This document shows, piece by piece, positions 5,126-16,787 of a DNA stretch of 22,682 nucleotides; within the stretch, counting starts at the first letter, position 1, and each line of letters begins with the position of its first letter. The position numbers were made by a program, and so were the translations under genes. The stretch is from a virus. Location: positions 1-22,682 of IMG/VR virus record IMGVR_UViG_3300031977_003469, one strand, 5' to 3'. The notes under the pieces were generated by a model. That model searched no databases and had not been told where the DNA came from. It saw nothing but the letters and a program-made list of their open reading frames with translations.

Positions 5126-7519
5126 ATGGAAGATAAATTAGTTACTGTAATTCTCTTAGGAGAAAACTCTGATAACAAAAATATTCAACACGTTATCAAA
5201 AACATTTTTGATCAAACACATAAAAACATAGACTTAGTAGTTTCCACTTTTAAAGAAGTTGAAGAATCTTTTAAAGAGGAATGTTCGAAACTATCATTGA
5301 ATATTAGATGGTTGCAACAAAACCCCTCTTCTGACTTCTTTAAGGAATTAATTGATCTTGCAGATGGAGACTATATTTTTTATAAGACACTTAACAATAT
5401 TTTGTGGTATCCTCGACACATTCAATCTCACTTAGAAGAGTTCAAAAAGAACAGGAATGCTCAATGGGCTTTTTCTCATGTAGAGTACAAAGATGTCAAT
5501 TTGGGAGATCATCCTTTTAACGTTATTAGTTATAGAATAGATAATCCACCAAACTTAGATAGAATAACTATTGATGAGGTCTGTCATAGTTCCAAGCTTG
5601 CAACAGATTGGACACAATGTTTAAGACAAGACAAAAATGGTAATCCGTTTTTTCTGGCTGGATATGTGGCTCAACAATGGAACAAGAATGCAATTAGAGG
5701 ATGCATCCCTCCAGAAATTACATTAGCTAATTGGGTTGATCCTAAGAGAAAGTCAAGCGGCGAAGATACAGGTGAAAAGACCGAATCAAAATTAGGTGCA
5801 CCTATATCCGATCAACCAGTTGAGGAAACAAAGATGGTTGATGGAGAAGTCGTTATTGAAAGAAAGTGGCCAACGATTGTTGGCAACTCTTACTTCTCTG
5901 ATAGAAATAATAAACTTAGAGAACTTATTGAATCCAATGTTTCAACAGAAGATATTAAATCTATTGCTTTGAAGAGAACAATGGGTATGGGAGATGTACT
6001 TCTTGTCGAGCCTATTATTAAGAAGCTTAGAGAAAAGTACACAAATGCCGTTATCAATCTTTACACCTCTAAAGAATCTATAGTAGAGTACTTTGAAAAC
6101 AAACCAGACTCCATTACTAGGATAGGGGAGAAAGAGCTGTCGCAGGATTATTTGGATCAACAAGATGAAGACTTAAAGTTTGACTTAGACTTAAGTTATG
6201 AGAGTAGGGAAAATACTTCTTTTGTAGATGCTTATGCTGACGTTTGTTTTATTGACTTTAATGATCAGAAAGATAAGCATGCGTCTTTGGTTAGTGGATC
6301 TTGGGATGAGGATGACGAAATAAAGACTGACAAAAAGATAGCTGTTGTATGTGCTGACGGATCTGGTTGGCATGGTAAGTCATGGCCATTGAGTTATTAC
6401 GAAGATGTTGTTGAATATCTTCTTGAAAATGACTACTATGTTATTGAGACAGGTAAGGTCACCACAGACCTTACTCCGAAGAAATATCATGATTGTGATT
6501 TTGATACAATGGTAAAATGCATATCTTCTGCTTCATTATATGTTGGCGGAGATAATGGCCCTATGCATATTGCAAGGGGATATAATGTACCATGTGTGAT
6601 CATTGCAGGTGCTGCATTACCTTACTATTCCAACCCTAATAGAGATAACATTTATTATCTTGAAAATCCAGAGAGTGAAGGGTGGGGTATTAAACATAGA
6701 TTTTTCTTTGGTCCTAATGGAGATGGAGGAATAACTTTTGTTCCTCACTGTGATGAAGATCCTTATTGCGGATTGAGAGATGTAAGCTCTAAGAATGTGA
6801 TTGACGCTATCCAAAAGTTAACTGCGGAAAATTACAAATTAAATATTTCTGGATCTTTCGTTAAGGAGGATATAGTTGGTGGTTTGGCTTATTACAAAAG
6901 TGATTATGGATTAGAAAGAGAAAATAAGTTTTATCACCCAGATCAAAATTTGGATCTTAGTGAATATTACGAAGAGGATACAGAAGATTATTTTGAAGAG
7001 TACCTAACCATACCTTTTGATTTTGTTTCCAAATTGCACAACGGTGGAAAAGTGCTGGACTTAGGATGCAATATGGGGATCTTAACTCGGCGCCTTCTAA
7101 ACTTTGATATGGATGCGTACGGCATAGACATTAATTCTAAGAGTGTAGATAAATCAAAGATTGTTTATGATATGGAAGAAGGCAGAGTTACTGTCAAGGA
7201 TGCTTTGGATACCGATTCTTATGAAGGAAACTATCAAGTAATAGTTTGCAATGATATGTTAGATAAAGTTTCTGAACCACAAAAGCTTTTGCAAAATATT
7301 CACTCAAACATTACTGATGATGGTAGTTGCGTACTTGGTATTCAAGTTGTAAATGTTGATGATTTAGATCAAAGATCTGATATATTTTCAATAGGAGAAA
7401 ATATAAACATTTTTGATAAAGACGGAGTAGAAAGATTGTTTTCTGAGAACGGTTTTTCTATCAAAGAAATCAGAGACAACGGTAACGGATTTGTGTACTA
7501 CAATTTAATTAAGTCTTAA
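5126..7519 (+). CDS. Three-domain fusion: GT2-like / GT9 heptosyltransferase-like / SAM methyltransferase
   Basis: A 797-residue protein from ATG 5126. Residues 5-120 resemble a GT2 (GT-A) glycosyltransferase, with VTVILLGEN and a QTHKNIDLVV segment. The position of the usual metal-binding DxDD after GDYIFYK reads TLNN, so this domain may be inactive or altered. Residues about 280-560 resemble a GT9 ADP-heptose LPS heptosyltransferase: MGMGDVLLVEPIIKKLREKY near 284, a GSGWHGKSWP segment, and VGGDNGPMHIARGYNVP near 472. Residues about 637-770 form a class I SAM methyltransferase, with VLDLGCNMG as the glycine-rich motif I and GIDIN as the acidic loop. It heads the sugar island and is followed 12 bases later by a DUF4254-like gene. 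It probably transfers and then methylates a sugar in the cytoplasm. The acceptor is unknown. Domain family calls are strong; substrate is inferred. Confidence 0.85.
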   Translation: MEDKLVTVILLGENSDNKNIQHVIKNIFDQTHKNIDLVVSTFKEVEESFKEECSKLSLNIRWLQQNPSSDFFKELIDLADGDYIFYKTLNNILWYPRHIQSHLEEFKKNRNAQWAFSHVEYKDVNLGDHPFNVISYRIDNPPNLDRITIDEVCHSSKLATDWTQCLRQDKNGNPFFLAGYVAQQWNKNAIRGCIPPEITLANWVDPKRKSSGEDTGEKTESKLGAPISDQPVEETKMVDGEVVIERKWPTIVGNSYFSDRNNKLRELIESNVSTEDIKSIALKRTMGMGDVLLVEPIIKKLREKYTNAVINLYTSKESIVEYFENKPDSITRIGEKELSQDYLDQQDEDLKFDLDLSYESRENTSFVDAYADVCFIDFNDQKDKHASLVSGSWDEDDEIKTDKKIAVVCADGSGWHGKSWPLSYYEDVVEYLLENDYYVIETGKVTTDLTPKKYHDCDFDTMVKCISSASLYVGGDNGPMHIARGYNVPCVIIAGAALPYYSNPNRDNIYYLENPESEGWGIKHRFFFGPNGDGGITFVPHCDEDPYCGLRDVSSKNVIDAIQKLTAENYKLNISGSFVKEDIVGGLAYYKSDYGLERENKFYHPDQNLDLSEYYEEDTEDYFEEYLTIPFDFVSKLHNGGKVLDLGCNMGILTRRLLNFDMDAYGIDINSKSVDKSKIVYDMEEGRVTVKDALDTDSYEGNYQVIVCNDMLDKVSEPQKLLQNIHSNITDDGSCVLGIQVVNVDDLDQRSDIFSIGENINIFDKDGVERLFSENGFSIKEIRDNGNGFVYYNLIKS

Positions 7520-7531
7520 CTGGAGGTTCTT

Positions 7532-7972
7532 ATGGATACGGTAGGTTCACTGTTTGATAAAATCAGCATAGCCGAAAAGAGATCTAGTGTAGTAGAAGAT
7601 GAAAGTGTTTTATATGACATAAATTGTCAGATAGGTTGGATGTTGCTAGAAATAGGACATATACTTGTTGAAGGTTTTAACAATAATAGACCTATAACTT
7701 TTTCAAAACATAAGATATATGATAAAGATGTTAGAGACTTTACTCCAGATAGTTTAACAGATTTAATAAAGAATTTAAAAGAGTACAATGAAACTCTGTG
7801 GGATCTGGAAGATATAAGAAGAGATAAAGGTCTAACAGATTCTGAAAGACTGGCTGCAGCTGATGATGTGTCTGTTTTTAACAAGAAAAGAAATGACACA
7901 ATAGATAAGATAGATTCGTATATTGAAAAATGCATAGTCTCTGCAGCAGTTGACAAGATAGGCCCAGAGTAA
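7532..7972 (+). CDS. DUF4254-like protein
   Basis: A 146-residue protein with a strong GGAGG ribosome site before ATG 7532. Near residues 85-97 it has YNETLWDLEDIRR, and near 116-128 FNKKRNDTIDKID. These match my memory of the DUF4254 pattern (an N-x3-W-x-LED-x2-R helix and a later N-x2-RND-x-I-x2-ID helix), a family often found beside heptosyltransferases in lipopolysaccharide gene clusters. Its biochemical role is not established. It sits between a GT9-containing fusion and a heptose nucleotidyltransferase-like gene, which is exactly the expected company. It is all-helical with no membrane segment. The stop overlaps the next start by one base (TAATG). The family call rests on short motifs and should be confirmed by profile search. 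Confidence 0.65.
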   Translation: MDTVGSLFDKISIAEKRSSVVEDESVLYDINCQIGWMLLEIGHILVEGFNNNRPITFSKHKIYDKDVRDFTPDSLTDLIKNLKEYNETLWDLEDIRRDKGLTDSERLAAADDVSVFNKKRNDTIDKIDSYIEKCIVSAAVDKIGPE

Positions 7973-8430
7973 TGTTATTTCATATAGACTTTTTCATAAA
8001 GAACAGATCGTTTCTAAGAAATTTAGTTTTTACGAATGGTTGTTTTGACTTACTTCACCCTGGCCATTTGAGAGTTTTGCGTACGATGCAATATTTTAAC
8101 GAAGAAGAATTTAACTCTATCTCTTTAGTAGGTGTTAATTCTGATAGATCAGTTTCGCAACTAAAAGGATTATCCAGACCAGTTGAGACATTTGAGAAAA
8201 GATGTGAGAAAATATTAGAAACTGGCTACGTAGATGGTGTATTAGAGATAGATAATATTAGTTCTTTGAGTACTATAAAAACTTTAATGCCAGATGTTCT
8301 TATAAAGGGAGGCAGTACAGATCAAATAGTTGGGCAAGACTTTGTGGAATCATATGGTGGAAAAGTTATAAAGACAGATCTAATTAAAGGTTATTCTACA
8401 ACAAATATATTGAAAGAAAGAAATAATTGA
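7972..8430 (+). CDS. RfaE/HldE C-terminal-type nucleotidyltransferase (heptose-1-phosphate adenylyltransferase-like)
   Basis: A 152-residue stand-alone cytidylyltransferase-fold enzyme. It shows FTNGCFDLLHPGH near residues 20-32 with the HxGH nucleotide-binding motif, VNSDRSV near 55, LKGLSRPV near 64, VLIKGG near 109, and GYSTTNIL near 140. The order and wording match the C-terminal adenylyltransferase half of HldE (RfaE), which makes ADP-D-glycero-beta-D-manno-heptose from heptose-1-phosphate and ATP. The N-terminal ribokinase-like half of bacterial HldE is absent here and not seen elsewhere in the window, so a kinase must come from the host or another part of the phage genome. Other cytidylyltransferases with HxGH exist (glycerol-3-phosphate, for example), but the KGG and STTN motifs favour the RfaE type. 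It overlaps both neighbours by 1 and 4 bases. Confidence 0.85.
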   Translation: MLFHIDFFIKNRSFLRNLVFTNGCFDLLHPGHLRVLRTMQYFNEEEFNSISLVGVNSDRSVSQLKGLSRPVETFEKRCEKILETGYVDGVLEIDNISSLSTIKTLMPDVLIKGGSTDQIVGQDFVESYGGKVIKTDLIKGYSTTNILKERNN

Positions 8431-9965
8431 AAAAATTTATCATACTTCAATTAGCAGGTTTTGGTGATACACTTTCCGCAATAACAAGACTGCCTGCGGT
8501 AAAGGAAAAATATCCCTACTACGAAATAATTTTCTATCTCGGCGGATATGGTAAGTCAGTTCAGTTCAGTAAAGAACAAATAGAGAGAGAAGGTTATAAA
8601 GCCAACATCATAAAGAATTTTAATTTTCACAATCAAATACCAGATATGAGAAAATTCTTGCAACAAAATGTTGTAAGTGAAGGAGACATATTAGAAGACT
8701 GGAGTTTTTGTGAAGAAATATTTCAAAATAAAGAACCTGTTTTTTATAAGTATCAGATGCAGTTTCCATACTCATATTCCTGTAGTGAAAAAAATGAAGA
8801 AGTTCAAGACAAGTGTATAGCTGTACATCCTTTGACAAAATCTGGAAACGCAGAGGGATATGGGAGTGATTTAGAAAACAAAAGATTTTGGGATAGGGAT
8901 GAATGGAGGCAGTTGTGTATTAATCTTTGCAACAATGGTTATACACCAGCTTTCGTCGGTTATGGTGATGAGGATTGGGGTTTAATAGAAGAACTCACTA
9001 CAGAGGGTTACAGAGTCTTAGATAAGAGAATGGGAGTAGAAGAAACAATATCGTTTTTGCAAACAGTTGATGGTGGCGTTTTTTGTAACAGCTGGGATTG
9101 GGAAGTAACATCAAGAGCTGGTATACCAACTTTTTGTTTTTATACAAAGAATCACTTTTTCATTCAAAACCACGTTCCCCACGGACCATCTGATTTTTGG
9201 AACAATTGTTATATAGAATCAAGATCGCAACTTTATACTAAGGAAGATGGTAAATATCCACTAAAAGAACTGGGTTGTGTAAAAGCTGCAGATGTTTATG
9301 ATAAGTTAAGGTACATTATTGATAACAAAGAAAGACCTCATGTTGATTATGATGTTTGTATGATAAGTTATAATGACCAAGATCATATAGCAAGAACACT
9401 TAACAATGTTAAACCTTATATAGATAATAAATTTTGTGTTGTTGATGGTTGTTCCACAGATAAAACAGTAGATATAATAAAACATATTATTCCAGATGAT
9501 AAATTAAAATTGGATGTGGTTAAATGGGATAAGAAGTTTGATGTACAAAAAAATAATTCTATAAAAATGTCAGAGAAAAAATGGGTTGTGTTTATAGATG
9601 CTGATGAAACTTATGAGCATATTTTTTGGAATCAATTATCTTGGTACATAAGAGAGTCAGAAGGGTTAAACATTGAATGTATTAATGTTTCAAGAATAAA
9701 CACATACAATGACATTGGCATTCAAGAGTTGCAACAGTTTGTTGAAAGTAAAGGGTGGAGAATTAATAATTTTGGTTGGGTTAATTATCCAGATTTTCAA
9801 CAAAGAGTTTTTAGAAATAATTTAAGGTTTGAAGGATCAGTTCATGAAACTATAAAAAATTGCAAAAAAGAATATTATTTGTATCCTGTTAATTGTGTAC
9901 ATGATAAAAGTTATAAGAAGCAATTAAAATCTTTTAAACTATATAAGGATATTGAGAATGGTTAA
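8427..9965 (+). CDS. Two-domain glycosyltransferase: GT9-like N-terminus, GT2 C-terminus
   Basis: A 512-residue protein read from TTG 8427, whose TTGA overlaps the previous stop. Residues 1-300 resemble GT9 heptosyltransferases: FIILQLAGFGDTLSAITRLP at the start, AVHPLTKSG near 132 in the donor-site half, and a degenerate form of the late GT9 motif (GGVFCNSWDWEVTSRAGIP). Residues about 305-500 are a GT2 glycosyltransferase: VCMISYNDQDHIARTL, a CSTDKTVD segment, VVFIDADE carrying the DxD metal motif, and FEGSVHE near the end. That last pattern resembles GT2 enzymes of lipopolysaccharide core synthesis such as WaaE. This domain order is the reverse of the fusion at 5126. The GT2 half looks catalytically intact. 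It probably adds two sugars in sequence; the substrates are unknown. Confidence 0.8.
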   Translation: MKKFIILQLAGFGDTLSAITRLPAVKEKYPYYEIIFYLGGYGKSVQFSKEQIEREGYKANIIKNFNFHNQIPDMRKFLQQNVVSEGDILEDWSFCEEIFQNKEPVFYKYQMQFPYSYSCSEKNEEVQDKCIAVHPLTKSGNAEGYGSDLENKRFWDRDEWRQLCINLCNNGYTPAFVGYGDEDWGLIEELTTEGYRVLDKRMGVEETISFLQTVDGGVFCNSWDWEVTSRAGIPTFCFYTKNHFFIQNHVPHGPSDFWNNCYIESRSQLYTKEDGKYPLKELGCVKAADVYDKLRYIIDNKERPHVDYDVCMISYNDQDHIARTLNNVKPYIDNKFCVVDGCSTDKTVDIIKHIIPDDKLKLDVVKWDKKFDVQKNNSIKMSEKKWVVFIDADETYEHIFWNQLSWYIRESEGLNIECINVSRINTYNDIGIQELQQFVESKGWRINNFGWVNYPDFQQRVFRNNLRFEGSVHETIKNCKKEYYLYPVNCVHDKSYKKQLKSFKLYKDIENG

Positions 9966-10692
9966 TCCAGAAGATATTCATGTCGTACTTTTGACTTATG
10001 ACAAGCAGTGGAATTTTTATTTGAATTTAGATATAATAAGAAAGAATTACGATTTTGGAAAAGACATATGGGTTTCTCATGTTTACAACGGAGACATGAA
10101 ACAACTATACACTGGTGTTGGAGAAAACAATTTTTTAAGAGTAGAAAAAAATAGAGGATATCAAGAAGGTGCATTAGATCTTTACAAAAAAGGGTTGGAT
10201 TTTGCAAAAACATTAAATAAAAAATATACTATGATAATGAATTCTGATGTTTGGGTTTTGAATCAACAAAGTTTTCTTAATTTATTTAATAACATAGGTG
10301 ATAAATATTTTTCTACAGGTAAAGACATAATGTTTGGTAGACCATTGACAGATATGTTTATATTCAAAACAGAACACATACCAGACTTAATAGAAGAAGA
10401 AGTACTTGGTTTCAGAAAAGAGAAGGATATTCTTAAAGAAGAATATAGAAAAACTGGATGGAACATATTTGAAGAATGGATGCTGAATGCATTGTATACT
10501 TCATATTCTGCTAAAAAAGAAGATGCCGGATTAGATGATTATTGGGAAGTAATGTTTAGAGGTGAACACCCAAGGTATAGTTGGAATGAAGAAAATCACG
10601 TTCTCCACATACATGATATAAATACAAAAAAGAAATTACTTCAACAGAATGATATTTTAAAAGGTGATAATATAGAAAACTTTATCAAGTAG
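9958..10692 (+). CDS. Putative glycosyltransferase (GT-A-like)
   Basis: ATG 9958 is preferred over the in-frame TTG at 9952 because the AAGGA site (9945-9949) is then 8 bases away; the gene overlaps the preceding stop by 8 bases and encodes 244 residues. It starts with IHVVLLTYDKQWNFYLNLDII, resembling a GT-A first strand. Then come NRGYQEGALDLYKKGLDFA and YTMIMNSDVWVLN, where NSDVW sits where a DxD-type metal motif would be expected. The tail has HPRYSWNEENHVLHIHD. No membrane segment is visible. The fold is inferred from this layout and from neighbours that are all glycosyltransferases. It could instead be a nucleotide-sugar-binding protein without transferase activity. Confidence 0.6.
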   Translation: MVNPEDIHVVLLTYDKQWNFYLNLDIIRKNYDFGKDIWVSHVYNGDMKQLYTGVGENNFLRVEKNRGYQEGALDLYKKGLDFAKTLNKKYTMIMNSDVWVLNQQSFLNLFNNIGDKYFSTGKDIMFGRPLTDMFIFKTEHIPDLIEEEVLGFRKEKDILKEEYRKTGWNIFEEWMLNALYTSYSAKKEDAGLDDYWEVMFRGEHPRYSWNEENHVLHIHDINTKKKLLQQNDILKGDNIENFIK

Positions 10693-10699
10693 GTGCTTA

Positions 10700-10927
10700 A
10701 TGAAAAATAAAGAAATGGTTAATCACCCTAACCATTATAATAATAATCCTTCGGGAATAGAATGTATAGATGTTATACGACATATGAATTTCAATGTTGG
10801 CAATGCTGTAAAATATTTGTGGAGAGCTGGCGTTAAGGATGACAAAACTCATATCGAAGATTTAGAAAAGGCTTCGTGGTACATTCAAGATGAGATAAAA
10901 AGAATAAATGAACTTAAAGAAAAATAA
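10700..10927 (+). CDS. DUF3310 protein (phage nucleotide-kinase-like)
   Basis: A 75-residue protein from ATG 10700 with a TAGGTG site upstream. VNHPNHYNN near residue 7, GIECIDVIRHM, and NAVKYLWRAGVKDD followed by HIEDLEKASWYI are hallmarks of DUF3310, a family common in phages and related to the C-terminal part of the T7 gp1.7 nucleotide kinase. Family members are short, as here. It lies between two glycosyltransferase genes, an unexpected place for a nucleotide-metabolism gene. Its end overlaps the next gene by 20 bases. The family call is strong; activity in this phage is inferred. Confidence 0.85.
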   Translation: MKNKEMVNHPNHYNNNPSGIECIDVIRHMNFNVGNAVKYLWRAGVKDDKTHIEDLEKASWYIQDEIKRINELKEK

Positions 10928-12023
10928 GAACAAAGTTATATTAATAGAAAATTTAGATTATAATAATAAACCTAAAGTAATACATCACACCAATGAACTT
11001 ACTATGGGTGGCACTGAAAAGTTAATACAAATAAACATGCCATATTATTTGAAGGACGAACACTTTGAACATTACTTGGCTTACAGAAGTAATGGTAACA
11101 ATCCAAGAGAAGTTTATTTCAAAGATATATTAGATGAAGATCACATGATATCTTATGAAGATGAAAGTGAATTCGTAAAGAAGGTAGAAGAAATAAAACC
11201 TTTCATAATGCATAGATATTCTGCAGGTATACCAGAGTTTCCTTTTGTTAATGACATAAAGAAAAACACAAAGTACTTTGTCTCAACTTCAACATTTGGC
11301 AATCAAGACGACACCATAGATATTGAATCTGTTATTTATGTTTCAAGTCATATAAGAAATTTATGTAAGAAACAAAATGAAAAAAATCACGGCATAGTAC
11401 GTATACCTGTCTGCCCTCCATGCTCAGAAAATAATCTTAGAGATGAACTTGGTATAGATAAAAATACTTTTGTTTTTGGTCGTATTGGTCGGGACGACAA
11501 CAACATCTATGATCCAATAGCTATAGAATCATATTATGATATAGAAAAAGAAAATGATGTTTGTTACCTTGCTGTTGCTCCATCTGATTTATTATTGAAA
11601 GATATTGAACGGCTCGGCGTGAAAAATTTTAAGTACATAGATAGAACTACAGATGAAAAAAGACTTTCATCTTTTTATAACACAATAGATGTCTTAGCTC
11701 ACAGTAGAAAAGATGGTGAGTGTAATCCATTAAATATTTGGGAAGCATTTTCTCACGGTAAACCTGTTATAAGTCATTATGGTTTTCCTTTCAACGGCCA
11801 TGTTGAATCAATAGATAATTGTGGGTTTGTTGTGTTGCCTCAAGATAAAGAAGGATACAAAAGATTAATGTTGTCTTTTGTTAATGGTGATATAGATTAC
11901 AATAAAATTAGCAAAAATTGTATTTCTAACTGGAGTAAAAACTCAACTCCTTACTTGTCTAGTAAAGATCATCTTAACGTGTACAAAAGAATATTGAAAA
12001 TGCATGAGGAGAACAATGAATAG
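10908..12023 (+). CDS. GT4-family glycosyltransferase (GT-B)
   Basis: A 371-residue protein from ATG 10908, overlapping the DUF3310 gene by 20 bases, with a weak ribosome site. Near residues 23-40 it has VIHHTNELTMGGTEKLI, the glycine-rich acceptor-side loop of GT4 enzymes. FGRIGRDDNN near 190 is the start of the donor-binding domain. HSRKDGECNPLNIWEAFSHGKPVISH near 265-290 contains the E-x7-E motif of retaining GT-B transferases. The first 20 residues are lysine-rich and could be an extension from an over-early start. It is followed by a sugar epimerase with an 8-base overlap. It would transfer a nucleotide-activated sugar in the cytoplasm; donor and acceptor are unknown. Confidence 0.8.
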   Translation: MNLKKNKNKVILIENLDYNNKPKVIHHTNELTMGGTEKLIQINMPYYLKDEHFEHYLAYRSNGNNPREVYFKDILDEDHMISYEDESEFVKKVEEIKPFIMHRYSAGIPEFPFVNDIKKNTKYFVSTSTFGNQDDTIDIESVIYVSSHIRNLCKKQNEKNHGIVRIPVCPPCSENNLRDELGIDKNTFVFGRIGRDDNNIYDPIAIESYYDIEKENDVCYLAVAPSDLLLKDIERLGVKNFKYIDRTTDEKRLSSFYNTIDVLAHSRKDGECNPLNIWEAFSHGKPVISHYGFPFNGHVESIDNCGFVVLPQDKEGYKRLMLSFVNGDIDYNKISKNCISNWSKNSTPYLSSKDHLNVYKRILKMHEENNE

Positions 12024-13008
12024 AAAAGTTCTGATAACGGGTGCAGCTGGTTTTGTAGGATCTCACACAGCAAAAAAATTCCTTGACGAAGGTTGGTACG
12101 TTTATGGAATTGATAATTTTTCTAAAGGGTACGAGAAAAATATAGAAGGTATGTTATCTAATCCTAATTTTGAATTTATAGAACATGATATAAAAAGAAA
12201 TATGGATTTTGATTTAGAATTAGATTGTATATTTCATTTGGCTGCTATAGGCGATATACCGTATTGTTTTTTAAACCCGAAAGAAGCCATTAACGATAAC
12301 ATAATAGGTAGTGTTAATGTATTTGACTTAGGTGTTAAAAGTAATGTAATGCACATATACTTTGCAGATACCTCTGCAGTTTATGATAACATAAATTTAA
12401 AAGAGGGAGAAATGTATAACGAATATGTTGCTCCGAACGCATTTAGCCCTAACAGTATATACGCTATAACTAAATCATCAGCATCTCATTTGTTGAGATC
12501 TTTGTGCTCAGTTAATGGAATAGGGTTTACTGGATTTAGGTACTCAAACATATATGGACCTTCTATGGATTTGACGAGAGAAGTACCTCCAGTGATTGGA
12601 GGTTTTGCATCAAAGTTGTTGAGTGGATCAAAGCCTTTGATATATGGAGATGGGAGCAAGATTAGAGAGTTTGTTTATATAGATGATTTAGTTAATTTAC
12701 ATTTCAACTCTATCGAATATAGAATGACCATGAAAAACCCTGTTACCTTTAATGTAGGGTCTGGAAATCCAATAACAATATTAGATCTTTATGATTTAGT
12801 GTGGGAAGTTTGTTCTGAGTTTACAGAAGACATTCCAGAAAAAGGAGACATAGAGTGGAGACATTCTAGAGTAAACGAAGCTGAAAAAGTAATTCTTAAT
12901 AGCGAATATGTTAATAGTTTTTGTCATTGGAATTGTATGACAAGTCTTGAAGATGGTATCAGAAAAACAATAACTTCACTAATAAAGAAAAAGGAAAACG
13001 ATGGATAG
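12016..13008 (+). CDS. NAD-dependent nucleotide-sugar epimerase/dehydratase (extended SDR)
   Basis: The start is ATG 12016, not the in-frame ATG at 12004, because GAGGAG (12005-12010) sits 5 bases before it; this gives 330 residues, normal for the family. Residues 9-15 are GAAGFVG, the NAD-binding glycine motif, followed by an acidic residue at the end of strand 2 (GIDNF). The catalytic set is visible as S120 in ADTSAVY and Y149-x3-K153 in YAITK. Later motifs FRYSNIYGP, GDGSKIREFVYIDDLV and FNVGSG are typical of UDP-glucose 4-epimerase-type and dTDP-glucose dehydratase-type enzymes. In a heptose setting it could stand in for the ADP-heptose epimerase HldD, but nothing in the sequence proves that. 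The gene overlaps both neighbours by 8 bases. Confidence 0.85.
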   Translation: MNRKVLITGAAGFVGSHTAKKFLDEGWYVYGIDNFSKGYEKNIEGMLSNPNFEFIEHDIKRNMDFDLELDCIFHLAAIGDIPYCFLNPKEAINDNIIGSVNVFDLGVKSNVMHIYFADTSAVYDNINLKEGEMYNEYVAPNAFSPNSIYAITKSSASHLLRSLCSVNGIGFTGFRYSNIYGPSMDLTREVPPVIGGFASKLLSGSKPLIYGDGSKIREFVYIDDLVNLHFNSIEYRMTMKNPVTFNVGSGNPITILDLYDLVWEVCSEFTEDIPEKGDIEWRHSRVNEAEKVILNSEYVNSFCHWNCMTSLEDGIRKTITSLIKKKENDG

Positions 13009-13624
13009 TTTTTTAGAAAGCTATATTGAAGACTCAATACGTATATTACAAAAAGTAAACAAGGATGATATTGAAAATGTATTGAGTGAAATAAAGAAAG
13101 TTAAATACCGCAACGGTAGAATTTTCTTTGTTGGAGTTGGAGGGGGTGCCGCACATGCATCCCATGCTGTAAATGATTTTAGGAAAATAGCAAATATAGA
13201 AAGTTACTGTGTTACTGATAATGTGGCAGAATTAACTGCCAGAGTTAATGATGATTCATGGAATAACAGTTATGTAGAATGGATAAAGTTAAACAAGTTA
13301 AGAGAGAGTGATTTAGTATTCGTTTTCTCTGTTGGTGGTGGAGATGCAGAAAGAAATATAAGCAATAATATTGTTAACTTGCTTAAATATGTTAGGGAGG
13401 AAACAGAAGCTAAAATAGTTGGTATCATTGGCCCCAACGGAGGTTACACTAAGAAAGTGGCTGATGCATGTGTAATCATCCCCATAAATATGTACGACCC
13501 TATTTCTAAAAATTATATTACTCCACACACAGAAGGTTTTCAATCTATTTTTTCTCACTTAATAGTTTCACATCCAGAAATAATGTATTATAATACTAAA
13601 TGGGAAACTAAGTATAAGGAGTAA
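13001..13624 (+). CDS. SIS-domain phosphosugar isomerase, GmhA-like
   Basis: A 207-residue single SIS domain without CBS domains, about the length of GmhA, the sedoheptulose-7-phosphate isomerase that starts heptose synthesis. GRIFFVGVGGGAAHASHAVNDF (residues 39-60) matches the GmhA phosphate-binding loop and helix. FVFSVGGGDAERNI near 107-120 is the second phosphate loop. TPHTEGFQSIFSHLIV near 174-189 matches the C-terminal catalytic helix. By hand alignment to E. coli GmhA, the catalytic His180 is kept as H186, while Glu65 aligns with D59, a conservative change. It overlaps the epimerase by 8 bases and is 4 bases from the transaldolase that would make its substrate. Other ketose-phosphate isomerases of the SIS family cannot be excluded. 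Confidence 0.75.
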   Translation: MDSFLESYIEDSIRILQKVNKDDIENVLSEIKKVKYRNGRIFFVGVGGGAAHASHAVNDFRKIANIESYCVTDNVAELTARVNDDSWNNSYVEWIKLNKLRESDLVFVFSVGGGDAERNISNNIVNLLKYVREETEAKIVGIIGPNGGYTKKVADACVIIPINMYDPISKNYITPHTEGFQSIFSHLIVSHPEIMYYNTKWETKYKE

Positions 13625-13628
13625 TTAA

Positions 13629-14297
13629 ATGTCTATATTCTTGGATACGAGTGATGTCAATCTTATAAAGAAGTACAACGAAATGGGTGTTATAAGAGGA
13701 GTTACAACAAACCCTTCTATTATTCTTTCTAATGGATTGGGGGAATATGAATCACTCAAAGAATGGGCCGTGGGCGTATCTGATATGATAAATCCATACC
13801 CACTTTCTATAGAAGTAACAACTAATGATTGGCAAAAAATATTAGCACAAGCTTCTGAATATTCTTCATGGGCGGATAACATAAATGTTAAAGTAACTAT
13901 ACACGATGAAGAAGGTAAAGAAAATCTTAGTATTATCAAGATATTAGAACAAGTAAAAGATATCAGAGTTAATGTAACAGCTATGATGAGTGCACAACAA
14001 TGTTTCTTAGCAGCTCTAGCTGGAGCTACATATGTTTCTTTGTTTGGTGGCAGAGTTAATAATATGGGATACAATACCAATGAAGAAATAGTGAAACTAA
14101 AAAATATACTTACTTCTGCAGAACTTGATTCTAAAATAATTGTTGGATCTGTACGAGAATCATTAAATATAGTAGAATGGATAGATTCTGGAGCAGATAT
14201 AGTTACTGTTCCTCCAAGTTTTTTAGAAACAATGATATGTCATCCATATAGCAAAGAAACAGTCAAGCAATTTATGGATGCGTCAGAGAAGCTATAA
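13629..14297 (+). CDS. talC: Transaldolase, TalC type
   Basis: A 222-residue protein with a GGAG site before ATG 13629, the size of the short TalC/fructose-6-phosphate aldolase group. Residues D6 (FLDTSD), TTNPS at 26-30 and the Schiff-base lysine K88 (NVKVT) are present. Two positions that separate transaldolase from fructose-6-phosphate aldolase read E62 (SIEV) and F139 (SLFGGR), the transaldolase state; the aldolase has Gln and Tyr there. It should therefore interconvert fructose-6-phosphate plus erythrose-4-phosphate with sedoheptulose-7-phosphate plus glyceraldehyde-3-phosphate. TalC is a known auxiliary metabolic gene of marine cyanophages. Here it sits directly after a GmhA-like isomerase, which suggests it supplies sedoheptulose-7-phosphate. 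Confidence 0.85.
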   Translation: MSIFLDTSDVNLIKKYNEMGVIRGVTTNPSIILSNGLGEYESLKEWAVGVSDMINPYPLSIEVTTNDWQKILAQASEYSSWADNINVKVTIHDEEGKENLSIIKILEQVKDIRVNVTAMMSAQQCFLAALAGATYVSLFGGRVNNMGYNTNEEIVKLKNILTSAELDSKIIVGSVRESLNIVEWIDSGADIVTVPPSFLETMICHPYSKETVKQFMDASEKL

Positions 14298-14309
14298 AAG
14301 GAGAATATA

Positions 14310-14522
14310 ATGTCTGAAGAAAAAAAAGAAGAAACAGATAACGTTTGGACTTGCAAGTGTTGTGGGTATGAATCTAAATCGGGGGAGAGAGTTTTATCTC
14401 TCAATATGGGTGATTCGTTCCAGTGTTTAGTATGCCCCGGTTGTTACACAATGCAACTACCACCTCCAGTTTATGAAGAGTTTAAAAAGATGATGGAATC
14501 AAATATTGTGAGGCCAACATAA
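14310..14522 (+). CDS. Small zinc-ribbon protein
   Basis: A 70-residue protein with an AGGAG ribosome site before ATG 14310. It has two cysteine knuckles: WTCKCCGYES near residues 13-22 and CLVCPGCY near 39-46, consistent with one bound zinc in a rubredoxin-like ribbon. The C-terminus is a helix (PVYEEFKKMMES). Nothing indicates DNA binding over protein binding. It ends immediately before the methyltransferase ATG, with no spacer, so translation may be coupled. Its role in the sugar island is unknown. Confidence 0.7.
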   Translation: MSEEKKEETDNVWTCKCCGYESKSGERVLSLNMGDSFQCLVCPGCYTMQLPPPVYEEFKKMMESNIVRPT

Positions 14523-15068
14523 ATGAACCTAAGAAAAAATAGTATAGACAATACTGGTAAAAAAGTTCATGTAGAATTAGGTTGTGGAAACAACAGAAGA
14601 GATATTGAAGGTTGGGTTAACATAGGTATTGATATAGAAAAAGGACATCTTGTTGATCACATATGTAACTTGGGTTTTGATGATATACCTTTAGATACAT
14701 CATCTGTCGATCTGGTACAAGCTGTTGATGTTGTAGAGCATATACCTAAGTGTGCTTGGATAAAGAATGATGAAGGTAGGGTTGATAGATTACTGCCATT
14801 GGTTCATTTGATGAACGAGATATACAGAATACTAAAACCAAATGGTGAATTTTACATGGAGATTCCATACGGTGAATGGGGGTACAGAAGAGATCCTACT
14901 CATGTTACTCAACTTTCAGATGATTGGTTTCACTACTTCCAACCTCATGATAATTTATATTGGGATCAAGGAATAGTTAAGTGCAATTTTAAAGTAAAAG
15001 AACACAGGTTAAAAGGATGGAAACATCTGGATGATATTATGGTGTCAAGAGTGGTGGCTGTAAAATGA
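14523..15068 (+). CDS. SAM-dependent methyltransferase (class I)
   Basis: A 181-residue single-domain methyltransferase. VHVELGCGNNRRDIEGWVNIGIDIEKG (residues about 14-40) contains the glycine-rich SAM motif and the acidic residue of motif II (here D). VDLVQAVDVVEHIP near 59-72 is the type 11 VEH motif, and EIYRILKPNGEFYMEIP follows near 98-114. The length is normal for small-molecule methyltransferases of surface-glycan clusters. A GTGAGG site lies 8 bases before the ATG, inside the upstream gene. It overlaps the next small gene by 4 bases (ATGA). The likely substrate is a sugar, but protein or DNA methylation cannot be excluded by sequence. Confidence 0.8.
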   Translation: MNLRKNSIDNTGKKVHVELGCGNNRRDIEGWVNIGIDIEKGHLVDHICNLGFDDIPLDTSSVDLVQAVDVVEHIPKCAWIKNDEGRVDRLLPLVHLMNEIYRILKPNGEFYMEIPYGEWGYRRDPTHVTQLSDDWFHYFQPHDNLYWDQGIVKCNFKVKEHRLKGWKHLDDIMVSRVVAVK

Positions 15069-15238
15069 ACTTAGCTAACCAACTATCTAATTCAATGTCA
15101 GAAAAATCGGAAGAAACTTATTCTGAAAAAGAAGAGCAAAGAAGTGTTTCTAATAAAGACAGAAATGATAAGTTTTGGATGAAAAGAAAAAACAAAAATA
15201 GAATGAAAAGAAAATCAAGAAAAAGAAACAGAAAATGA
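15065..15238 (+). CDS. Small basic-tailed protein (57 aa), hypothetical
   Basis: A 57-residue reading frame that fills the 166-base gap between two clear genes. ATG 15065 overlaps the methyltransferase stop and its own TGA overlaps the next start, both as ATGA, and a GGTGG site lies 7 bases upstream. These junctions are the main evidence that it is real. The N-terminal 36 residues are rich in S, E and N; the last 20 are strongly basic (ending KRKSRKRNRK). It could bind nucleic acid or an acidic partner. No family is recognised. Confidence 0.6.
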   Translation: MNLANQLSNSMSEKSEETYSEKEEQRSVSNKDRNDKFWMKRKNKNRMKRKSRKRNRK

Positions 15239-16248
15239 ATTTAAAAAAGTATGTTAATAATGAAAATATAAAATTATTAATTGTACAATGTAGTGAATAT
15301 GATTATACAGTAGCCACCCTAATAGAGGGATTACATGAGTATTGCAAAAATAATAAAGATATAATATTTAAATGCGTTTCTGATTCTAATTATGCTAAAC
15401 ATTATAAAGATTATACTATATCAGAACAAGATATAGAAGAGTACGTAAAGAGCTGCGATTTTATTGTTACAACTTCTAACAGATGGGTTAGATACGACCT
15501 TGTTAAAAAGTTTTATGACATAAATAAAGTAATTTTTCTGGATGGGTCAGATAGTATGGATTTTACTGCTGACCCTAAAGATTTTGTTCTTTATTTTAAA
15601 AGAGAATTATTAAAAGAAAATAAAATATTAAATGTTAAACCATTTCCCTTTGCTGCAGAAAATAGATATTTTTTTAATAACAACATCGACTTAAATAATT
15701 TATATAATTCTTTCGAAAAAATATGGGATAACAAATTGATAAAAGTTTGTTGCCTTCTCTCAACTGATAATAATAGAAATCATAGATATAAAATAAAAAA
15801 CACTATAGACAGTAAGTACTCTGGTTTTGAATGGTATGTTGGAGATCCAGTAATGGGAGGTACTAAAACTGGAATAGATTCTATAGTTGGTAAATTACAT
15901 AACGATGCGTATTATGATTTGCTAAAAAACACAAAAATTTCAGTAGATGCGTGGGGTGCCGGAAAGTTAACTGGAAGAATGTTTGAATCATTAGCTAATG
16001 GATGCCTCTTGTTTCAACAACCAATAGATGACTTACTTTATTATGATGAATTAAAAGTTGACAAAGAAATTGTTTTTTATTATAATGAAGGTGAGTTAAT
16101 AGAAAAAATTGAATACTATATCAATAATGAAAAAGAATCCAAAGATATAGCTTATAACGGTTTTGTTAAGTTGTTAAAAAGCCACACCACTTTAAGTAGA
16201 GCAAAATATTTTATCGATACTTTAAAAGAAAAAAAATACAGGAGATAG
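15235..16248 (+). CDS. Glycosyltransferase, GT-B with Glyco_trans_1_2-like C-terminus
   Basis: A 337-residue protein from ATG 15235, translationally coupled to the small gene upstream. The N-terminal half begins KLLIVQCSEYDYTVATLIEGL. The C-terminal half has ISVDAWGAGKLTGRMFESLANGCLLFQQP near 237-265, then VFYYNEGELIEKIEYYINNEKES and HTTLSRAKYFIDTL. This order matches the C-terminal domain family known as Glyco_trans_1_2, seen in spore-maturation CgeB-like and phage glycosyltransferases. The gene is notably more AT-rich (K, N, I, Y codons) than its neighbours, hinting at a separate origin. It is the last glycosyltransferase of the island. Substrate unknown. Confidence 0.75.
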   Translation: MNLKKYVNNENIKLLIVQCSEYDYTVATLIEGLHEYCKNNKDIIFKCVSDSNYAKHYKDYTISEQDIEEYVKSCDFIVTTSNRWVRYDLVKKFYDINKVIFLDGSDSMDFTADPKDFVLYFKRELLKENKILNVKPFPFAAENRYFFNNNIDLNNLYNSFEKIWDNKLIKVCCLLSTDNNRNHRYKIKNTIDSKYSGFEWYVGDPVMGGTKTGIDSIVGKLHNDAYYDLLKNTKISVDAWGAGKLTGRMFESLANGCLLFQQPIDDLLYYDELKVDKEIVFYYNEGELIEKIEYYINNEKESKDIAYNGFVKLLKSHTTLSRAKYFIDTLKEKKYRR

Positions 16249-16252
16249 TAGA

Positions 16253-16423
16253 TTGGCTCGTACAAATCGCCGCAGGGAAAAAAATATTGACGATATGTTG
16301 GATAGAAAGAGAAAGATTTCTGATAAGAAAAAAGGCTCCAGTCGGAAAAACCTTAAAAGCAGTTTAAGAAACGTGGACATAAACAACTTAAAAGAAGAAG
16401 ACATTGAAGAGTTTTATGAGTAA
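16253..16423 (+). CDS. Small charged protein (56 aa), hypothetical
   Basis: A 56-residue frame starting at TTG 16253 with an AGGAG site (16240-16244) 8 bases upstream, filling the gap after the glycosyltransferase and overlapping the next ATG by 8 bases. The first 40 residues are very basic (starting MARTNRRREK, with KRK and KKK runs), and the last 15 are acidic (EEDIEEFYE). Such charge asymmetry suits binding to nucleic acid or a protein partner. No family is recognised. Spacing, the ribosome site and full gap coverage support it as real. Confidence 0.6.
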   Translation: MARTNRRREKNIDDMLDRKRKISDKKKGSSRKNLKSSLRNVDINNLKEEDIEEFYE

Positions 16424-16787
16424 TCTAAGTTTAGAGGAAAAAATAAATTTTATTTCTGGTACTTATCGCGACCCAAAGATAGCCGCTATAGACTTTGATA
16501 ATACACTTTTTGAGAGAAGTGAAGAAGGATATCCAGAAATTGGCGCACCCATAGAAAAAAATATAGATTACGTAAAAGAAATGCAGGTTAAGGGATGGAA
16601 GACAATACTTTGGACTTGTAGAGATGGAGAAGCTTTGGAAATGGCTTTAGAGGCTTGTAACAATGAAGACTTATTCTTTGACAAAGTTAATGATAATTTG
16701 TACGAAGAAGATAACAATGTTTTGTCTAGGAAAATTTATGCTTCAATATATATTGATGACAAAACATTAAACCCTATGGAGATATAA
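16416..16787 (+). CDS. HAD-superfamily hydrolase-like protein
   Basis: ATG 16416 is preferred over the in-frame TTG at 16404 because of the 8-base overlap with the preceding frame and a GAAGAG site; the product is 123 residues. IAAIDFDNTLF (residues 22-32) is HAD motif I with D26 and D28, TILWTCRDG near 66-74 is motif II, and YIDDKTL near 112-118 is motif IV. The small size means little or no cap domain. Similar short HAD proteins occur in many phages without assigned substrate. In this context it could be the heptose-bisphosphate phosphatase (GmhB role), but it is just as likely a nucleotide phosphatase linked to the thyX block downstream. Confidence 0.75.
   Translation: MSNLSLEEKINFISGTYRDPKIAAIDFDNTLFERSEEGYPEIGAPIEKNIDYVKEMQVKGWKTILWTCRDGEALEMALEACNNEDLFFDKVNDNLYEEDNNVLSRKIYASIYIDDKTLNPMEI

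Follow-up and report, generated by a model that had tools for sequence, protein, structure and literature searches.

The closest described relatives of the genes considered here are the lipopolysaccharide (LPS) clusters of cyanomyoviruses (P-SSM2, S-SM2, S-SSM7, S-CAM1 and P-TIM68; T4-GC 303-308), in which a nucleotidyltransferase (NT) of the HldE-C family, a small HAD protein, an SDR epimerase and glycosyltransferases occur together with an HldE-N-like PfkB kinase and a carbamoyltransferase. In this work we analyze a related run of 14 plus-strand genes, which in a divergent phage separates structural from replication genes, in the virus record IMGVR_UViG_3300031977_003469 (positions 5126 to 16787). 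The window, i.e., the whole stretch of DNA that was analyzed, is the complete 22,682-base record, itself a 22.7-kb fragment. The run shares the NT, small HAD, SDR and glycosyltransferase types with the cyanomyovirus clusters and is a variant of this known kind of "LPS" cluster; what is added is an uncharacterized clade of SIS-fold isomerases with a dedicated transaldolase, whereas the cyanomyovirus clusters have no SIS protein of this clade and their transaldolase gene, talC, is unlinked. With little better than even confidence, we read the run as a phage glycan operon, consisting of a glycosyltransferase core (5126-12023), a variable epimerase-isomerase-transaldolase insert (12004-14297) and the HldE-C-like NT, that would make a heptose-like sugar.

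Bacterial systems offer further points of comparison. The ADP-heptose pathway (GmhA, HldE, GmhB and HldD) and the window have in common an HldE-C-like NT and a GmhA-like fold, but the window lacks a kinase, GmhB and HldD, and its isomerase is non-canonical. A compact bacterial cassette of GHMP kinase, HddC-like enzyme, SIS, GmhB and transaldolase genes (for instance in Polynucleobacter, L091) is similar to the window in its tight order and in encoding a transaldolase and an isomerase of the same SIS clade; the window differs by having an HldE-C-type NT instead of the GHMP kinase, HddC-like enzyme and GmhB. No description of this transaldolase-containing cassette was found in the open-access literature searched. 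Its kinase, phosphatase and nucleotidyltransferase families match those of the GDP-heptose pathway, which is not known to include a transaldolase. The GmhA of GDP-heptose synthesis in M. tuberculosis keeps the catalytic Glu and Gln, unlike the isomerase of the window (PMC7705670). Finally, Caulobacter phage Cr30 has annotated genes for a heptose-7-phosphate kinase, a phosphoheptose isomerase, an epimerase and a GT2 glycosyltransferase, with neither a transaldolase nor an NT annotated beside the isomerase. The latter (L162:4881-5480) and its counterparts at L188 and L189 are of an intermediate type, combining the H-D-E-H metal site also found in the window with a GmhA-like phosphate loop, in which they differ from the window protein.

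The isomerase clade and its transaldolase partner

The original prediction, made from the bare sequence, called the isomerase GmhA-like, and the fold class it implied is borne out by the structural model. The confidently predicted AlphaFold model is most similar to GmhA and DiaA (Z ~20-24, rmsd 2.2-2.8 Å over 164-182 residues; other SIS entries reach 18 at most). Because the four metal-ligand positions of the model are all occupied by plausible ligands, a DiaA-like non-enzymatic role is not favoured. The profile matches, in contrast, are weak (SIS_2, 22.2 bits; gmhA TIGR00441, 29.2 bits for a cut-off of 209). Scans using the window isomerase and its first relative as queries detected 61 loci in viruses and at least 564 in bacteria or archaea, 80 of the latter being kept for analysis. 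When this family is aligned with E. coli GmhA, positions H61, E65, Q172 and H180 become H, D, E and H in 100, 100, 99 and 99% of the members, respectively, so that two of the four metal/catalytic positions are changed, and in the substrate loop N52 is replaced by V and S121 by G. The residue signature of the clade is H-D-E-H plus a V-[GS]-S-V-G-S substrate loop. The H-E-Q-H zinc/catalytic residues of GmhA have been described as conserved in orthologues, and the Q175E variant of Burkholderia pseudomallei GmhA was reported to be inactive (PMC5705639). In a quick tree the long-branched SIS clade is set apart from canonical GmhA (SH-aLRT 100 for the former, 98 for the rows of GmhA). Moreover, of 20 bacterial genomes that encode this isomerase, 14 additionally have a canonical H-E-Q-H GmhA, indicating that the new protein is not simply a GmhA replacement. 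By these GmhA-defining tests the protein qualifies as a candidate metallo-isomerase with a GmhA fold, but not as a canonical GmhA.

Such a result raises the question of whether a heptose is made at all. A dedicated transaldolase and an H-D-E-H isomerase might produce another ketose/aldose phosphate pair leading to a rare nucleotide sugar, an alternative to which the nearly invariant exchanges at the catalytic positions (E65 to D, Q172 to E), the exchanges in the substrate loop, the separate long branch and the presence of a dedicated transaldolase in most cassettes all lend weight. We nevertheless regard it as unlikely, as the bacterial partners of the isomerase are best matched by models for HddA (kinase), GmhB/histidinol-phosphatase (phosphatase) and MurU/HddC-type enzymes (nucleotidyltransferase). 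The isomerase thus falls outside GmhA, yet its clade is embedded among HddA/GmhB-type heptose genes. The bacterial order is compact (GHMP kinase, with HddA as best NCBIfam model / HddC/MurU-like nucleotidyltransferase / SIS / GmhB-type HAD / transaldolase), and within 3 kb of the isomerase gene the 80 loci contain a GHMP kinase in 61 cases, an HddC-like nucleotidyltransferase in 63, GmhB in 69 and a transaldolase in 63.

The transaldolase of the window belongs to the same lineage as these cassette enzymes. It falls into a clade (support 98) with SIS-adjacent bacterial transaldolases (L079, L095, L100 and L114; 59% identity), retains, in the alignment, the VK(I/V)-motif lysine as well as the TTNP motif, whereas it is only ~33% identical to cyanophage TalC, from which the tree separates it; its assignment as a cyanophage-type TalC is ruled out on this basis. 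The tree, built without characterized transaldolases, places the lineage and not the activity. The grouping favours the idea, already put forward in the original prediction, that the enzyme supplies the sugar precursor: the sugar-cassette lineage is supported, and the supply of sedoheptulose-7-phosphate itself would follow from family chemistry. That the gene is instead an ordinary metabolic one serving nucleotide synthesis, placed in a glycan operon by chance, seems highly improbable to us. TalC-type enzymes are indeed widespread in cyanophages, the window transaldolase has matches in 502 phage records, and published work interprets phage talC as a gene of pentose-phosphate metabolism (PMC3037559; PMC2984593); however, besides its phylogenetic position, the window gene starts 4 bases after the isomerase gene, and P-SSM2 talC is found ~50 kb from the LPS cluster. 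In a contrast set of loci retrieved through the 512-aa protein of the run or through UvsX, no transaldolase was present.

The pairing extends to other phages. A transaldolase is encoded within 3 kb of the isomerase at 52 of the 61 phage loci and a GHMP kinase at 44, and 22 of them combine transaldolase, GHMP kinase and an HldE-C/cytidylyltransferase-type NT without GmhB or HddC. Among the 24 NT frames found, 17 are at least 230 aa long and have an N-terminal DxDxT HAD motif. One such frame (L047:12181-12921) and those of ~16 other phage loci consist of a small HAD fused to an HldE-C/cytidylyltransferase-type domain, alongside GHMP kinase, isomerase and transaldolase, and could unite phosphatase and activation in one protein; with these fusions, the phage loci would hold a complete-looking set of steps. 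At L001 the isomerase is fused to a GmhB domain and flanked by a GHMP kinase and a transaldolase. A SIS-HAD-transaldolase trio is also present on a Lawsonia intracellularis plasmid (L161:5995-7985). At four bacterial loci a second SIS gene with an H-D-E-L metal site directly follows the transaldolase gene (L079:2806-3357, L095:9264-9848, L100:7844-8395 and L114:4006-4581); its product is perhaps a non-catalytic or heteromeric partner. The window isomerase has no match among named phages, and the L001 isomerase used as query gave only ~27-32% matches there.

Proposed activation and transfer of the sugar

The original prediction had assigned the run to the ADP-heptose pathway, and part of this assignment survives. 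On sequence grounds the NT is HldE-C-like: TIGR02199 is its top curated model, although the score stays below the equivalog cut-off of 181.5 bits, and the glycerol-3-phosphate cytidylyltransferase model reaches only 22.8 bits. With E. coli HldE it shares 37% identity and aligned HxGH, KGG and STTN motifs; in the tree it is placed, with modest support, between the HldE-C sequences and the GC304 clade of cyanophages. Profiles likewise recover the predicted transaldolase, NAD-dependent epimerase and DUF4254 protein. The epimerase, however, is a generic GalE/decarboxylase-type SDR and not HldD, scoring 108.8 bits with TIGR01181 (dTDP-glucose dehydratase), 103 bits with GalE and 80.5 bits with HldD TIGR02197; its nearest solved relatives are UDP-glucose 4-epimerase and UDP-glucuronate decarboxylase, and it is 23% identical to E. 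coli HldD.

The predicted HAD phosphatase is found as a small HAD protein whose NF046079 score remains under the cut-off of that model, and its identification as GmhB is ruled out by profiles. It matches neither the cyanophage GC306 nor the L047 HAD domains, and no counterpart was detected in those sister phages that were examined. We would like to point out that T4-GC306 of cyanophages, annotated 'phosphoheptose isomerase' (L223:7104-7448, with homologues at L002, L221, L222, L225 and L226), looks like a ~110-aa HAD protein, judging from weak HAD Pfam matches and a DxDGT motif, and is homologous to the N-terminal HAD domain of L047-type nucleotidyltransferases. T4-GC307 (L223:7429-7785), annotated 'putative nucleotidyltransferase' and elsewhere cysteine dioxygenase, matches Cupin_2 and, weakly, lyxose isomerase.

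As regards transfer, two proteins with GT9 (heptosyltransferase-family) domains had been proposed. The 797-aa protein does have one, the match being far below the heptosyltransferase equivalog cut-offs. For the 512-aa protein Pfam gives GT2 only, in the C-terminal half, and hhalign against E. coli WaaC/F/U returns a probability of 3% with a thin profile. Its AlphaFold model is of low confidence (pLDDT 45.6), the protein having few relatives. GT9 in its N-terminal half is unsupported by Pfam or hhalign, and the segments GFGDTL and AGIPTFCFY resemble GT9 by eye only. Absent from the earlier list were the methyltransferase domain of the 797-aa protein, the GT4 and GT1-type glycosyltransferases and a second methyltransferase.

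A classical ADP-heptose pathway (GmhA, HldE, GmhB, HldD), with the host supplying the missing steps, would agree with the HldE-C-like NT, with the GT9 domain of the 797-aa protein and with an rfaE_dom_I-like kinase found in a sister phage (see below). It is quite unlikely in our view, as the isomerase branches apart from GmhA, has another metal site and co-occurs with canonical GmhA in bacterial genomes, the epimerase is not HldD, the fragment has no kinase or GmhB, and sister phages without the isomerase encode the NT as well.

Sister phages, the variable insert and gene layout

The comparison with sister phages relies on sequences that are all fragments (L003 and L144-L148). One of them (L003) has the core, the epimerase and the isomerase but neither NT nor transaldolase, another (L148) only the epimerase, and L144-L147 have the core and the NT without epimerase, isomerase and transaldolase; the 797-aa GT9/methyltransferase protein is conserved in L145-L147. 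The site between the genes for the GT4 and 246-aa proteins and the 70-aa gene is thus variable, and the epimerase, isomerase and transaldolase genes form a variable insert in an otherwise conserved core of glycosyltransferase genes. Neither a GHMP kinase nor a SIS_2 match is present on the 109-kb contig from which L146 derives; it carries, with a tail sheath gene nearby, a PfkB kinase whose best model is rfaE_dom_I (80 bits) and which adjoins a NodU carbamoyltransferase. In P-SSM2 and S-SSM7, an NT and an HldE-N-like kinase are likewise located beside or near a carbamoyltransferase; phages of this kind thus encode the two HldE halves separately. Two frames of uncultured phage contigs (L227:2180-3643 and L220:3002-4426) have matches to the HldE-N-like kinase as well as to the HldE-C-like domain and are possibly whole phage HldE proteins.

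Given this patchy presence, the epimerase, isomerase and transaldolase genes might be transient acquisitions or cargo that serves no common function in the phage, and for the LPS genes of cyanophages the possibility of stuffer DNA was left open by Sullivan et al. (2010; PMC3037559). We hold this to be very unlikely for the window: the frames are intact, the overlaps tight and the invariant metal-site residues kept, and the SIS-transaldolase pairing is found repeatedly, in distant phages as well as in bacteria.

As had been proposed, the genes form one contiguous plus-strand run (Table 1). Most of them overlap or are less than 15 bases apart (8 bases of overlap between epimerase and isomerase genes), with two gaps of ~160 bases near the end. 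The run is a real gene array, since it contains 11 plus-strand open reading frames of at least 140 codons, compared with 0 in each of 200 base shuffles. It is preceded by a gene for a LamG-containing structural-type protein, and the right end of the window encodes ThyX as well as gp32-like, UvsX/RecA-type recombinase and helicase-like proteins, the last named from sequence. The phage is considered divergent because the best named-phage match of its recombinase is only ~38% (Microcystis phage Mel-JY01); no DNA-level relatives of the window were found among named phages. The DUF3310 protein is a common phage protein that probably lies outside the sugar pathway.

Table 1. Genes and domains of the run, with their positions in the window.
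Feature	Position	Strand	Evidence and remarks
797-aa multidomain glycosyltransferase	5126..7519	+	GT9 residues ~394-510, PF01075 30.7 bits (cut-off 22)
797-aa protein, C-terminal methyltransferase domain	5126..7519	+	residues 635-779, PF13489 57.4 bits
DUF4254 protein	7532..7972	+	PF14063 36.8 bits (cut-off 27); kept in sister phages
HldE-C-like (rfaE domain II) NT	7972..8430	+	TIGR02199 112.7 bits
512-aa protein, C-terminal GT2 glycosyltransferase	8427..9965	+	PF00535 44.7 bits, residues 310-402
246-aa protein (E246), no Pfam family	9952..10692	+	kept in sister phages
DUF3310 protein	10700..10927	+	PF11753 53.2 bits
GT4-type glycosyltransferase	10908..12023	+	PF00534 34.7 bits; kept in sister phages
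NAD-dependent sugar epimerase/dehydratase, SDR	12004..13008	+	PF01370 148 bits
SIS-fold metallo-isomerase candidate, H-D-E-H clade	13001..13624	+	model pLDDT 95.8; residues H55 D59 E178 H186
Transaldolase, SIS-cassette lineage	13629..14297	+	PF00923 121 bits (transaldolase/FSA family)
70-aa cysteine-rich phage protein, conserved; end marker of variable insert	14310..14522	+	
Methyltransferase	14523..15068	+	PF08241 23.6 bits (cut-off 21.2)
GT1-type glycosyltransferase	15235..16248	+	PF13524 53.5 bits; also in L003, L148
Small HAD protein, BT0820-like, candidate phosphatase	16404..16787	+	NF046079 77.6 bits (cut-off 165)

Proposed pathway and its significance

Taken as a glycan operon, the run probably makes and attaches an activated seven-carbon-type sugar, and for this operon we infer substrate, nucleotide, product, acceptor and biological role along the following lines. 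The transaldolase would form sedoheptulose-7-phosphate from fructose-6-phosphate and erythrose-4-phosphate, as its family chemistry suggests, and the H-D-E-H isomerase would convert the ketose-phosphate to an aldose-phosphate, either a heptose 7-phosphate or the corresponding C2 epimer. The sugar-1-phosphate may then be formed by a kinase and a phosphatase that come from the host or from another part of the phage genome; the NT would activate it and the SDR enzyme modify it. The phage glycosyltransferases would attach the sugar to a glycan, the target being probably the host surface or the virion, that is, a host surface polysaccharide or a virion protein. The original prediction had also considered attachment to DNA; no pointers to DNA modification emerged in this analysis. 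For P-SSM2, superinfection exclusion has been proposed (review PMC2984593).

Several observations weigh against a heptose operon of this kind. The glutamate reported to inactivate GmhA as Q175E is native in this isomerase, whose substrate may therefore not be sedoheptulose-7-phosphate. The uneven presence of epimerase, isomerase, transaldolase and NT in the sister phages argues against one obligatory pathway travelling together. In addition, the 22.7-kb fragment encodes no sugar kinase (PfkB, GHMP or HldE/HddA) and no GmhB, and its HAD protein is not GmhB-like.

A wider proposal, doubtful but conceivable, is that a nucleotide-sugar pathway not described so far is defined by the H-D-E-H isomerase together with the transaldolase dedicated to it; this pathway would yield a heptose epimer or another rare sugar and be widespread in bacteria and present in many phages, where hybrids with HldE-C/cytidylyltransferase-type activation, some of them HAD-fused, would have arisen. 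Ever since P-SSM2, phages have been known to encode sugar clusters, whose products are still to be identified, and the 2010 survey left open whether they are functional (PMC3037559). That a transaldolase is paired with a separate clade of isomerases points to a likely precursor step for such clusters and provides a precise residue signature, and complete-looking phage versions, such as that at L047, could allow the pathway to be rebuilt in vitro, enzyme by enzyme.

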